From positions 1 to 20,176 of IMG/VR virus record IMGVR_UViG_3300020220_000426: a stretch of DNA of 20,176 nucleotides; one strand, written 5' to 3'. The translations under genes were made by a program, and so were the position numbers. The stretch is from a virus. Under the pieces are notes generated by a model that saw only the letters and a list, made by a program, of their open reading frames with translations, did no database searches and was not told where the DNA came from. Positions 6,650-18,223 of the stretch are shown here, piece after piece (the first letter of the stretch is position 1; every line of letters begins with the position of its first letter).

Positions 6650-6657
6650 TATTTATA
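6650..6657 (-). promoter_or_regulatory. T4-type late promoter TATAAATA
   Basis: An exact TATAAATA on the minus strand, the late-promoter box used in T4-like phages by the gp55 sigma factor with gp33 and the sliding clamp. It stands about 31 bases before the ATG of the MPLWGK gene, leaving a leader of about 25 bases that contains the SD sequence. It begins at the end of the T-run of the upstream terminator. Confidence 0.8.
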
Positions 6658-6682
6658 AAAAAGGGGGACAATGAAATCCCCC
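6657..6682 (-). terminator. Rho-independent terminator
   Basis: On the minus strand GGGGGA pairs with TCCCCC (6 bp) around an eight-base loop and is followed at once by six T residues. It lies 25 bases after the stop of the 59-aa gene and ends the transcript of the 369-aa and 59-aa genes. The T-run leads straight into a late promoter. Confidence 0.88.
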
Positions 6683-8053: not shown

Positions 8054-8621
8054 TAAAGTTTGTGGGTAATCTGTTAGCGATCTCTTTCATAAGTTTTTTA
8101 CAATCACTATCATTTAACGCTGTGGGAATGCCTGGACGAAATGTTGTAAAGTCACCAGCAAATGCTGCTCTTCTCATTTTAGTTCCAGAGATTGCAAATG
8201 TATCTCCATCAGCATCACGGTCACCAGATGAGATTACATCAAGTTCATTAAACACAAAGTCTTTACCATTATACTTTTTAATCCACTGCATCGCCTGAAC
8301 TCTATCAGAACCTACTACAAAGTATGCATTATCATATCCCAGTGACTGCAATTCCTGAAGGATGGTCACAGGGTCTTTAGCAGTAGCACTACTGAATATT
8401 TTACCACGATGGTCTGGAAGTGATTTAGTCATATAGGTCAACTTCACATCAGGAGGTAAAGGATTATTACCTTTAGAATCTACAGACTGACTGATGTAAA
8501 TACGATAATCATTACTGCCAGCAATTCTCTTCAGATTTGAGAAATTTTCAGCGTGACCTGTAGTGCAGGGTTGGAATCTGCCAAATGTAAAGTAACAACT
8601 TTTGTATTCTATGAGACTCAT
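8049..8621 (-). CDS. NMNAT-like nucleotidyltransferase
   Basis: A 190-aa protein of the HIGH-motif nucleotidyltransferase superfamily (nicotinamide/nicotinate mononucleotide adenylyltransferase, cytidylyltransferases). The N-terminal FTFGRFQPCTTGH (residues 11-23) is the ATP-binding loop with the T-x-G-H form of the HxGH motif. VVGSDRV (102-108) and ISGTKMRRA (144-152) match the central SD motif and the C-terminal ISxTxxR motif. All the family's binding motifs are present, so activity is likely: transfer of an AMP or CMP group to a mononucleotide, perhaps NAD+ synthesis from NMN. The substrate cannot be decided from the sequence. Its ATG overlaps the stop of the ligase-like gene (ATGA, 8618-8621), suggesting the two work together. 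T4-like phages are known to carry NadV/NadR-type NAD genes, which makes NAD metabolism the leading guess. Confidence 0.85.
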   Translation of the reverse strand: MSLIEYKSCYFTFGRFQPCTTGHAENFSNLKRIAGSNDYRIYISQSVDSKGNNPLPPDVKLTYMTKSLPDHRGKIFSSATAKDPVTILQELQSLGYDNAYFVVGSDRVQAMQWIKKYNGKDFVFNELDVISSGDRDADGDTFAISGTKMRRAAFAGDFTTFRPGIPTALNDSDCKKLMKEIANRLPTNFK

Positions 8622-9826
8622 TTCTTCCAGTTCTTTTCTATTGTGAAATTATTTTTGCTAAACTCAATACGATTAACTAATTTCACCATATCTCCATCTT
8701 GATGAAGAACATAACCTTCAGGAGTAGTAACTTTATAACCACCATCAATCTCAACGAAAGTTCTAAACTGTTCTAAACTATCTAACTTTTGAATAATGAA
8801 TAGTTTTGCTTCCTGAATAGTTTTGTACAAAGCAACAAATGCTTTAAATTGTCGTTCATGATCTTCTAAGTATTTAATACCGCTATAAAACAAATCTCTT
8901 TTCTTTGTTTGGGCGGCGGCAGTTTTAACAGAGTTAATTTCCTTATCCATCTTTTCTTTATAGAACATAGCAAAAGATTTTAAAGTAGCATCAACATTAG
9001 TAATTGTTCTCGCTGCTTTAATCTCTGCATTAAAGAATGGTTTTAAATAAGACCCCACAAAAAACTTCGCATCACCAGTGGTGCCAGAGTTTTCCACAAG
9101 GTAATCGTGAAACTCTGCAGAAATTTCACACATTCTGTTTATTTGCTGGATGTATCTGTTGAATCTTTGTTCTTCCGTTTGCGAGAAAGATACTTGCTGA
9201 ACTTCCGTATCATTAGAGATAACGGCAACATCATCAACAGAATTAAATCTCGTAATATCAACACGAGGTCGTGCAGACATATCTGCAAGATCAGGACCAC
9301 CAGTATAATGAGTATGAAACACCACTCCAATTTTAGCTCTATTGACTTTTTTACCAATAGGATGATCAGTTGGGATACCATATGTAATCGTGTTAGGTCT
9401 GAATACTATTATCTCTTCGCCATCTACTCTCTGCGTTTTCTTATCGTCGGTAAACAAAAGGTCTCCCTGTATCACACCAGTAATACCAAGTTTAGAAAAA
9501 TAATTTAAACAATCTTTGAGTTTTTTATTTAACTCACCCTCGTACATATTATCAATATCACCGTCTGTATAACATATCTTTGGTTCTTTTTTGTTGAAAA
9601 CTGATTTAGTTCCAACAAAAAATAAACTTGTTATAGGGTCTACACCACATACGACAGAAGGAGCGCCGTCCCATTTTGTTTGAAGAAATCCTCCTGTAGA
9701 TTTCTTACCAATCATATTTTTCAACTCAGTAAGAAAACTAACAATAGCAAAACATCCTTCAGAACCATAGTTCAATACTTCGTCTTCAAGGTGTTCAAGA
9801 TGTTTTAGTTTAACTATGTTTGCCAT
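8618..9826 (-). CDS. Ligase-like (KWDGAP) protein, putative nucleotidyltransferase
   Basis: A 402-aa protein that I recall as a conserved but uncharacterised family in T4-like cyanophages. FLQTKWDGAPSVVCG (residues 48-61) looks like nucleotidyltransferase motif I (K-x-D-G) of ATP-dependent DNA/RNA ligases, with K51 the candidate adenylated lysine. FFVGTKSVFNK (69-79), GVIQGDLLF (117-125, motif III-like) and VFRPNTITYGIP then GVVFHTHYTGG (141-176) occupy the places where the middle ligase motifs would fall. I do not see a clean motif V (KxK), so catalytic ligation is not assured. The C-terminal half (200-402) is helical and charged. It is coupled to both neighbours: TAATG at 9824-9828 with the gene before, ATGA with the NMNAT-like gene after. 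Confidence 0.8.
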   Translation of the reverse strand: MANIVKLKHLEHLEDEVLNYGSEGCFAIVSFLTELKNMIGKKSTGGFLQTKWDGAPSVVCGVDPITSLFFVGTKSVFNKKEPKICYTDGDIDNMYEGELNKKLKDCLNYFSKLGITGVIQGDLLFTDDKKTQRVDGEEIIVFRPNTITYGIPTDHPIGKKVNRAKIGVVFHTHYTGGPDLADMSARPRVDITRFNSVDDVAVISNDTEVQQVSFSQTEEQRFNRYIQQINRMCEISAEFHDYLVENSGTTGDAKFFVGSYLKPFFNAEIKAARTITNVDATLKSFAMFYKEKMDKEINSVKTAAAQTKKRDLFYSGIKYLEDHERQFKAFVALYKTIQEAKLFIIQKLDSLEQFRTFVEIDGGYKVTTPEGYVLHQDGDMVKLVNRIEFSKNNFTIEKNWKK

Positions 9827-11292
9827 TAATTTGAAAAAATTAAAGTATAATTAACAGTTCCTTGTGTTGCAGATATAAGATCAGTAGCAGATTTACTGCC
9901 AATAATATGTATGTCTGCGTTTGTTATTTTTTTAACTGTAAAAAATATTTCACCTCTTCTAAATTTAGCAAGGTCTATATAAGCTTGAAATATTGTTCTG
10001 CCGATCAAAGTGTTTCTCATTATTTCTTTTGATTTTTCTTCGCTATTTAATTTATCCGCAATATATCTGGAAAATAGTGATGTCATTCCAGATCCACACT
10101 TCTTAAGTGATGCCAGAACAGATCGGGAACTTGCTGTTGGAAATTCGGAAGAGTTTAAAGATGACTGAACTTGAATTGCTTTTCTAATTACTTGTCCATA
10201 AACTGGATTATCTAAACACCCCGCCTTTAATTGTTTATATAAATCATCTGGATTTATGGTTGGATTTTTATTTCTTTCTGTTGATGTAGATGGTCCAACC
10301 GAAAATCCTAGAATTTTTTCCACACCATATCTATAAACATATCTCATAGCTTTTCCACCAGTAATTTTACCACCATCAATTGATTTGCATATTTGCATAA
10401 GATCTTTTAATGTTGGTGCATTATTTAATCTATTAGGATCTGGAGTTACATGTGGCATTACATTAGACCACAAAGAAGGGTCTGCACCTTTTTTACCTGC
10501 TTTAGATGATATTAATCTTCTTTCTCTACCACCATCAGAGTAAATAAATTGCAAATAAGAATCTACACCAGCAAATGATGGATCTGTAGGGACAGCAAAA
10601 TATTCTAACTTTCCAGTGCTTGGTGTTTTTAATAATTGTGGTGAAGAAATAGTTGTATTATTTCCTAATAAAGCTTCATATCCTATGAGAAGTTCGCCAA
10701 GATAAATTGCCAACTGATTTTTTTCTTTATCTGATACACCAGCATTCCATATAAATTTAGAATTTCCTGTTATACTTCCAGCATCTTCATCTACATCATC
10801 ATAAAAAAATTGAACTACTTGCTCTAGAATATAATCTGGAACCGATGGTTCATTTGTCAAACCATCAATTATTGACACAGCTAATTGTCTTGCTGAAGTA
10901 AATTTTTTACATGGAACATTTTCCTGTTCATTTAATGTAGGAACTACTATACTTTCTCCTCTATGAATTAATTTAGTAGATTCAATTTGAAAAGTTGCTT
11001 TTCCATCTTTTACTTTATCAATACAATTAATATGAATCCACCCTGTTCCTTCATTACCAGCATCTACAGATATAAGATTTTTGAAAGTTCCAGTATAATG
11101 ATAGGTATCACTTTCAAAAACTGTAATGGGATGACCGTGTTCCAATAAAACTTTATTGAAAAGATTTCCTGAATTATTTTGAACTTGTAAATAACTTTTA
11201 CCTCTAGTATTTGAACTATTTGCTTTTACAAAAGTTTCTACTTCTCTGTCCTTAAAATACTTTTCCCATTTCTTATCAGTTTGCTTGGACAT
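9826..11292 (-). CDS. Unknown 488-aa protein behind a late promoter/hairpin
   Basis: I do not recognise this 488-aa protein. It is Ser/Thr/Asn/Lys-rich, with no signal peptide or membrane segment. The centre contains SYLQFIYSDGGRERRLISS followed by KAGKKGADPSLW (about residues 245-275). An acidic strand followed by S-x-K and Gly/Lys is faintly reminiscent of restriction-type nuclease cores, but this is only an impression. The C-terminal 80 residues, from RRGEIFFTVKKI through DIHIIGSKSATDLISATQG, predict beta structure. Codons appear more AT-rich than in gp43 or UvsX. The only nearby SD is the GGGGG arm of a hairpin immediately before ATG 11292. Its stop overlaps the ligase-like start (TAATG), so the three genes 11292-8049 form one expression unit. 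Confidence 0.8.
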   Translation of the reverse strand: MSKQTDKKWEKYFKDREVETFVKANSSNTRGKSYLQVQNNSGNLFNKVLLEHGHPITVFESDTYHYTGTFKNLISVDAGNEGTGWIHINCIDKVKDGKATFQIESTKLIHRGESIVVPTLNEQENVPCKKFTSARQLAVSIIDGLTNEPSVPDYILEQVVQFFYDDVDEDAGSITGNSKFIWNAGVSDKEKNQLAIYLGELLIGYEALLGNNTTISSPQLLKTPSTGKLEYFAVPTDPSFAGVDSYLQFIYSDGGRERRLISSKAGKKGADPSLWSNVMPHVTPDPNRLNNAPTLKDLMQICKSIDGGKITGGKAMRYVYRYGVEKILGFSVGPSTSTERNKNPTINPDDLYKQLKAGCLDNPVYGQVIRKAIQVQSSLNSSEFPTASSRSVLASLKKCGSGMTSLFSRYIADKLNSEEKSKEIMRNTLIGRTIFQAYIDLAKFRRGEIFFTVKKITNADIHIIGSKSATDLISATQGTVNYTLIFSN

Positions 11293-11314
11293 AAAAAATC
11301 CCCCTTATAGGGGG
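11293..11314 (-). terminator. Hairpin terminator overlapping a gene's SD
   Basis: On the minus strand CCCCC-TATAA-GGGGG-A-TTTTTT: a five-base-pair all-GC stem, five-base loop and six T residues, with the T-run ending directly at ATG 11292. It closes the early unit gp43-uvsX-gp41-mazG just after the mazG stop. The GGGGG arm is also the only SD-like sequence for the 488-aa gene, so a full-length transcript would hide it. Confidence 0.75.
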
Positions 11315-11322
11315 TATTTATT
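11315..11322 (-). promoter_or_regulatory. Candidate late promoter AATAAATA
   Basis: AATAAATA (seven of eight to TATAAATA) overlaps the mazG TAA stop. With the usual late-promoter spacing of five to six bases, transcription would begin at about 11309, just after the CCCCC arm of the hairpin. Late RNA would then keep the GGGGG SD free and could not form the terminator stem. Confidence 0.6.
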
Positions 11323-11725
11323 AGATATCGTTTGCTACTCGGTTCTCGCTACGCTCAATACTAAATGCACCTTCAGGGTAACGAGCACTTAATTTCTCAA
11401 AGTTCATCTGGATAATCTCTTCCAAGGAAACATTAAGTGCCAGACAAGCTTGAGCAACATACCACATAATGTCACCAAGTTCACGCTTCAAATGAAACAA
11501 GTTTTCTTGGTTCACTGGTTTACCTTGGAAGACAATCTTCTTCACAATCTCAGTAAACTCTCCAGCTTCAGCAGACATTCCTACAGCAGCAGTAAGCAAT
11601 CTCTCGGTAGGAAAATTTTCTCTCTGAAGTTCTGCAAGACGAGAAGAAAAATCAGGAAAGTTTTTACTGGGTAGAGAAGTAGTGGTGTCTACAAACTCAA
11701 CATACTTATTAAGATCAATTGTCAT
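11321..11725 (-). CDS. mazG: MazG-type nucleotide pyrophosphohydrolase
   Basis: A 134-aa all-alpha NTP pyrophosphatase. The MazG metal-binding motif is complete: EAGEF (E53, E56) followed by ELGDIMWYV (E82, D85), the classical ExxE...ExxD set that binds magnesium. Enzymes of this fold hydrolyse (d)NTPs or related nucleotides to monophosphates and pyrophosphate. In cyanophages mazG is a common host-derived metabolic gene, proposed to adjust (p)ppGpp or nucleotide pools; the substrate is not shown by the sequence. It follows gp41 by two bases without an obvious SD and is the last gene of the gp43-uvsX-gp41 unit. Length is that of a single-domain MazG, about half of the two-domain E. coli protein. 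Confidence 0.9.
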   Translation of the reverse strand: MTIDLNKYVEFVDTTTSLPSKNFPDFSSRLAELQRENFPTERLLTAAVGMSAEAGEFTEIVKKIVFQGKPVNQENLFHLKRELGDIMWYVAQACLALNVSLEEIIQMNFEKLSARYPEGAFSIERSENRVANDI

Positions 11726-18174: not shown

Positions 18175-18182
18175 TATTTATA
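18175..18182 (-). promoter_or_regulatory. T4-type late promoter TATAAATA
   Basis: An exact TATAAATA on the minus strand, 13 bases before ATG 18161. Its first T is the last base of the upstream terminator T-run. Transcription should start about 18169, leaving an almost leaderless message for the 52-aa gene and continuing into the nucleotidyltransferase gene. Confidence 0.78.
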
Positions 18183-18223
18183 AAAAAAGGGGGGACTCCT
18201 CTGATATTTGCCAGAGGATCCCC
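18182..18223 (-). terminator. Rho-independent terminator after hsp20
   Basis: On the minus strand GGGGA pairs with TCCCC and TCCTCTG pairs with CAGAGGA, a 12-bp stem with one bulged base and an eight-base loop, followed by extra C and seven T residues. It lies 23 bases beyond the hsp20 stop. Confidence 0.9.

Follow-up and report, generated by a model that had tools for sequence, protein, structure and literature searches.

In T4 genes such as e, soc, 49 and I-TevI, the ribosome binding site (RBS) is paired in the long early RNA, and the late promoter is located around the 5′ strand of this pairing (PMC3014915, PMC2988022). RBS hairpins are also found in nuclease genes that reside in early operons and are expressed late, namely Aeh1 mobE and T4 segB, I-TevII and I-TevIII, and the 5′ part of the T4 mobE coding region contains an intrinsic terminator (PMC2988022). 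The T4 late promoter consensus is numbered from −13, with +1 six bases past the box. An A at −13 is an accepted variant, the form AATAAATA occurs at 9 of 50 T4 sites, and A-T pairs prevail just downstream of the late boxes, which is a statistical preponderance and not an absolute rule (PMC2988020). For phage S-PM2, NATAAATA has been proposed as the late motif (PMC2984593). Here we describe a locus at which a late-type box, a hairpin of intrinsic terminator form and a Shine-Dalgarno (SD) sequence share their bases.

The locus is found in a 20-kb virus record from IMG/VR, a fragment of 20,176 nucleotides which is called the window in the following. Its genes run in one direction and are T4-like, in the order DNA polymerase, UvsX, gp41 helicase, MazG, a gene for a 488-aa protein, DUF6267 and nucleotidyltransferase, with primase, NrdA and NrdB further on. 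The MazG protein is closest to the MazG proteins of cyanomyoviruses. Its gene is the last one of the upstream uvsX-gp41-mazG run, and its early timing is assumed here from its operon partners. The DUF6267 protein (8618-9826), whose gene adjoins the nucleotidyltransferase gene, contains the stretch TKWDGAPS, which by eye is like the nucleotidyl-lysine motif of DNA/RNA ligases. At 6650-6682 and 18175-18200 on the minus strand of the window, the T-runs of terminators are fused to perfect TATAAATA boxes (CCCCCTTTTTTATAAATA).

At the junction of mazG and the 488-aa gene, the minus strand from 11322 to 11290 has the order AATAAATA-CCCCC-TATAA-GGGGG-A-TTTTTT-ATG and reads ...GATATCTAATAAATACCCCCTATAAGGGGGATTTTTTATG... 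across the element (Table 1). The stop codon TAA of mazG (11323-11321) overlaps the late box. An earlier note on this DNA had placed the box, both arms, the loop, the T-run and the ATG, and these coordinates proved exact when the sequence was read again. It had also put the late start at about 11309, in agreement with T4 numbering from −13, which gives +1 = 11309 (PMC2988020); a start at 11308 (A) is equally plausible as one at 11309 (T). The double use of GGGGG as stem arm and SD, likewise noticed before, holds for the window instance by sequence and by predicted folds.

Table 1. Features of the element and of its neighbouring genes (positions in the window)
Feature	Position	Strand	Remarks
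mazG (MazG nucleotide pyrophosphohydrolase)	11321..11725	minus	PF03819 E 1.2e-8; phrog_229 E 9.5e-56
Late box AATAAATA, T4-type	11322-11315	minus	−13 to −6; from sequence
First stem arm CCCCC	11314-11310	minus	fills −5 to −1; predicted absent from late RNA
Hairpin loop TATAA	11309-11305	minus	predicted late +1 at 11309 (T) or 11308 (A)
Second stem arm GGGGG	11304-11300	minus	sole Shine-Dalgarno-like sequence, 7 nt before ATG
A between arm and T-run	11299	minus	from sequence
T-run TTTTTT of intrinsic terminator	11298-11293	minus	predicted 3′ ends of early RNA
ATG of 488-aa gene	11292-11290	minus	from sequence
488-aa gene	9826..11292	minus	starts at ATG 11292; SH3-like N-terminal part

Based on this layout, the element is probably a compact on-switch for a late gene, standing between this gene and an early/middle operon (uvsX, gp41, mazG). 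RNA polymerase reading through from mazG would transcribe both arms, and the CCCCC/GGGGG hairpin together with the T-run would halt the early RNA short of the ATG. In read-through RNA that escapes, GGGGG, its would-be SD, would be base-paired. At late times, RNA polymerase with the phage late factors would start from AATAAATA at about 11309, past the CCCCC arm. Since a late RNA without this arm could not form the hairpin, it would be elongated, and its SD, at 7 nt from the start codon, would be free. The activity and start site of the promoter, the stop of early RNA, the timing and the lock on translation of read-through RNA are all predicted from sequence.

The hairpin has the form of an intrinsic terminator, with five G-C pairs and a T-A pair followed by one A and six Ts. 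In an independent terminator scan it ranks second among all sites of the window, which holds 20 terminator-like sites versus 9.9 ± 2.7 in shuffles. The stem of the element is short, 5-6 bp versus a median of 8 for the other terminators of five genomes. RNA from 11340 is predicted to fold into the hairpin at −15.3 kcal/mol with the SD paired, and RNA from 11309 only into a weak alternative at −3.4 kcal/mol with the SD free. Defining a nest as NATAAATA, a hairpin of at least four G-C pairs starting −2 to +2 from the end of the box, and then TTTTT, we find one in the window and none in 400 dinucleotide-preserving shuffles of it.

The same layout is conserved in many other phages. Scanning IMG/VR for the box, an abutting CCCCC, a loop, GGGGG and a T-run gives 70 loci. 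Together with the window, the element is directly behind mazG in 57 of 71 loci and occurs behind other genes too, and the genes after it in these 71 loci fall into ten clusters without detectable mutual BLASTP similarity. A second form, box-CCTCC-loop-GGAGG-T-run, is found at 62 loci in IMG/VR. It precedes a gene of a RusA-like resolvase family in 49 of them, including the cultured isolate S-PM2, where this gene lies behind nrdB, is annotated as RusA-like Holliday junction resolvase and has the leader GATAAATA-CCTCC-ATAT-GGAGG-TTTTTT-ATT-ATG in the region 115169-115200. Both arm forms occur within the 488-aa family and within the MAIDKGKQ family; the middle pair has therefore changed from C-G to T-A, by which the stem is kept and the quality of the SD is kept or improved. 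An endolysin gene is found directly after the resolvase gene in L483 (S-H34), L484 (S-CRM01) and L486 (MA01), and the switch may also govern lysis genes there.

The distance between box and arm in relatives had been proposed by the earlier note as a check, and it is constant at 0-1 nt across dozens of contexts. A box-free scan, which required the hairpin, the T-run and an ATG, returned at least 76 distinct contexts. Among the matches listed (76 distinct contexts), [AG]ATAAATA touches the arm in 37 and is 1 nt off in six, which makes 43 of 76 at an offset of 0-1. Also among the matches listed, no box is found 2-32 nt from the arm, except for one tandem-duplicated hairpin at 23 nt. In a set of T4-like loci, part of which had been selected because they carry the element, the 5′ arms of the terminators cluster at offsets of −1 and 0 from the box, and in a second group the box comes after the terminator. 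The element is not present at the sought sites in Syn9, Cr30, HTVC008M and most of the sampled resolvase-bearing isolates, mostly because the genes overlap there. In the relatives found by mazG (L011-L087), mazG mostly overlaps or abuts a small gene (MTKEKQVTIKMDAR...) without the late element. L511, on the same contig as L288, has two tandem copies of the hairpin after a single box, some 60 bases ahead of the start codon. A late RNA from this box would still carry the second hairpin, and the duplication is either a natural counter-example or a recombination product.

A search that used the alignment of the 488-aa protein alone, with identity down to 33%, gives 37 loci with 36 readable leaders, 23 of them distinct. 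Of the 36 loci, 34 (21 of the 23 distinct leaders) have a hairpin with a T-run whose 5′ half contains or adjoins a late-type box, and in these 21 the start codon comes directly after the hairpin. Two relatives of the gene, L497 and L498, lack the element. In L499-L504 and L523, the gene of this family lies behind tRNA-Ser(TGA), and the terminator hairpin (CCTCCTCT/AGGGGAGG) is longer and has a TCTAAATA box in its loop. The arms in the family comprise CCCCC/GGGGG, CCTCC/GGAGG, TCCCC/GGGGA, CCTCCTCT/AGGGGAGG, ACCTCCC/GGGAGGT and GAGGGG/CCCCTC, and they always pair. When 12 leaders from three gene families are aligned, 100% of the cells pair and seven double changes are observed versus 2.5 in shuffles, a count that is not a probability as the leaders are related sequences. 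With the partner slid by 1-3 columns, the same 12 leaders give no double changes. To be noted, the 40:39 ratio of CCCCC/GGGGG to CCTCC/GGAGG with no mixed arms is not evidence of covariation, since the scans required matched arms. The core common to the relatives appears to be an intrinsic terminator with a late promoter nested in it.

The window box fits the NATAAATA motif of S-PM2 and is of T4 type (TATAAATA or a close variant). Of the 21 leaders of the 488-aa family with the element, 13 have the box ATAAATA and eight have CTAAATA, which is Aeh1-like. A purine stands at the sixth base past the box in 72 of the 79 related contexts that are distinct. An A-T-rich segment after the box is absent in the window, where its place is taken by CCCCC at −5 to −1, and with five G-C pairs to melt after the box the strength of the promoter is doubtful by T4 standards. 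Two instances of the element precede a gene matched to the head-tail adaptor Ad2 (gp13), which is late and structural; both contigs share one sequence. In S-PM2 (NC_006820), a terminator hairpin at about 66797, upstream of gp13, carries the late box GATAAATA in its loop. Box-in-loop hairpins like that of the S-PM2 gp13 leader are also seen in L439, L448, L059 and L341. The gp33 late coactivator family is encoded by six of the eight long relatives examined, including G002, a genome with the element behind mazG.

In the fold, some of the box is paired with the U-run, and the stop codon overlaps the box. AATAAATA could be read as an A-rich tract of the kind that is common ahead of intrinsic terminators and pairs with their U-run, here fused to the stop codon, the element being no more than the terminator of mazG. 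However, ATAAATA or CTAAATA is kept exactly, Ts included, in unrelated upstream contexts, and there are other leaders, among them those behind the tRNA gene, in which the box has shifted into the loop of the hairpin. Furthermore, it is absent from most other terminators of the same genomes and it precedes the late gene gp13. We rejected the A-tract on the conserved Ts and the relocation of the box into the loop, and regard it as very improbable.

Of the 21 leaders in the 488-aa family that bear the element, 19 (the window included) have a G-rich 3′ arm usable as an SD. Across 79 distinct related contexts, a distance of 7 or 9 nt separates the G-rich arm from the start codon in 72. Swapped arms, with a G-rich 5′ arm and a C-rich 3′ arm that holds no SD, are found in L006 and L512 of the 488-aa family, before the resolvase gene in S-H34, and in L406 of phrog_1462 (versus L220). 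A scan for the swapped polarity gives 25 loci with varied genes. Such leaders, which keep the same box, T-run and ATG, are what would be seen if terminator and late promoter were packed together for space or operon insulation; the RBS lock would then lack a separate function, since RNA that is terminated does not extend to the ATG. The un-nested late boxes elsewhere in the window, fused to the T-run of the preceding terminator, would also fit. With packing, the nested arms are expected to follow the general polarity, and the other terminators in five long genomes have the G-rich arm first in 49 cases versus 26. Yet the nested terminators of the same five genomes are C-rich first in 5 of 5 (a sample that is not independent, as four of the five genomes were chosen for carrying the element), and the 19 leaders above have the same polarity. 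In addition, both common arms, GGGGG and GGAGG, are good SDs at a spacing of 7-9 nt. We consider packing as the full account unlikely.

The C-rich-first nests, set against a mostly G-rich-first background, suggest that hiding of the SD is favoured where it is possible. As some members of three gene families have swapped arms, it is a frequent feature and not an indispensable one. The switch would have promoter nesting and the stem as its constant features, and the SD in the 3′ arm as its majority state. The core of the earlier note, a late box set in such a way that late RNA lacks the first arm of the terminator, is strongly supported by the fixed spacing and the stem covariation. Its claim that the SD is hidden stands for the window and most relatives and fails as a general rule, given the C-rich 3′ arms in L006, L512, S-H34 and L406.

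The protein encoded behind the element in the window has no Pfam or PHROG match, no confident Foldseek match and nothing in a profile search of PDB sequences, and the only isolate relative found is a distant one in Caulobacter phage Cr30. Its AlphaFold model has a mean pLDDT of 78.7 and shows an SH3-like N-terminal part. Residues 161-484 of the model match the restriction enzyme MspI with Z 5.2 over 197 residues, which is weak and below the Z 8 caution line. Glu200, Asp244, Ser262 and Lys264 (E200, D244, S262, K264) are invariant in the family and would suit a PD-(D/E)XK nuclease, which we take as a lead only. From the model, the protein may be an MspI-like nuclease of PD-(D/E)XK type. Homing endonucleases such as I-TevI bind operators over their own late promoters (PMC2988022), and with a possible nuclease downstream, the palindrome could be chiefly a site, in DNA or RNA, to which a phage regulator such as an autorepressor binds, and not a terminator. 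Against this, the same stem is found before unrelated genes, its arms change by compensation or full swap with the T-run invariant, and the element has no Rfam match. We give this regulator site hardly any credence, and keep to the terminator with a nested late promoter.

The recurrence of the element before unrelated genes raises a wider, more tentative possibility. A portable cassette of about 33 bp, in which late promoter, terminator and SD share bases, might have served T4-like phages of marine and fresh waters repeatedly for placing late genes, of which several are nuclease-like, at the ends of early operons (nrdA-nrdB, uvsX-41-mazG); the downstream gene would be exchanged while the cassette stays. 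If the switch works as proposed, 33 bp would hold three signals set by the start of the RNA: an early stop, a late go and a late-only ribosome site. In this simple way a phage could store a late gene that may be harmful behind an early operon. The switch would also be a caution for annotation: a gene is not necessarily silent when a strong terminator stands immediately ahead of its start codon. The presence of the element in cultured S-PM2 makes these predictions directly testable. In the literature searched, mostly outside subscription papers, we found no description of a promoter in a terminator combined with an exact fill by the arm, and the literature searched gave no transcription start sites for element-carrying cyanomyoviruses.

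A comparison with the ordinary terminator-late promoter junctions of cyanomyoviruses shows that both signals lie within 40 bp there as well, as in the window with TTTTTTATAAATA at 6650 and 18175. In those junctions the box comes after the terminator and the start codon later, whereas here the box precedes the stem and touches it. In Aeh1 mobE and T4 segB, I-TevII and I-TevIII, terminators and RBS hairpins are separate, while here one hairpin could do both, and no test made identifies the genes downstream of the element as homing endonucleases. The closest likeness is to T4 e, soc, 49 and I-TevI, where RNA from the late promoter also lacks the 5′ strand that hides the RBS, and the analogy to e and I-TevI drawn by the earlier note is sound and documented (PMC3014915, PMC2988022). 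Unlike in these four T4 genes, the hairpin here also has the shape of an intrinsic terminator, with a first arm that occupies exactly −5 to −1 and a second arm that is itself the SD. The element measures about 33 bp in all and recurs before many unrelated genes.
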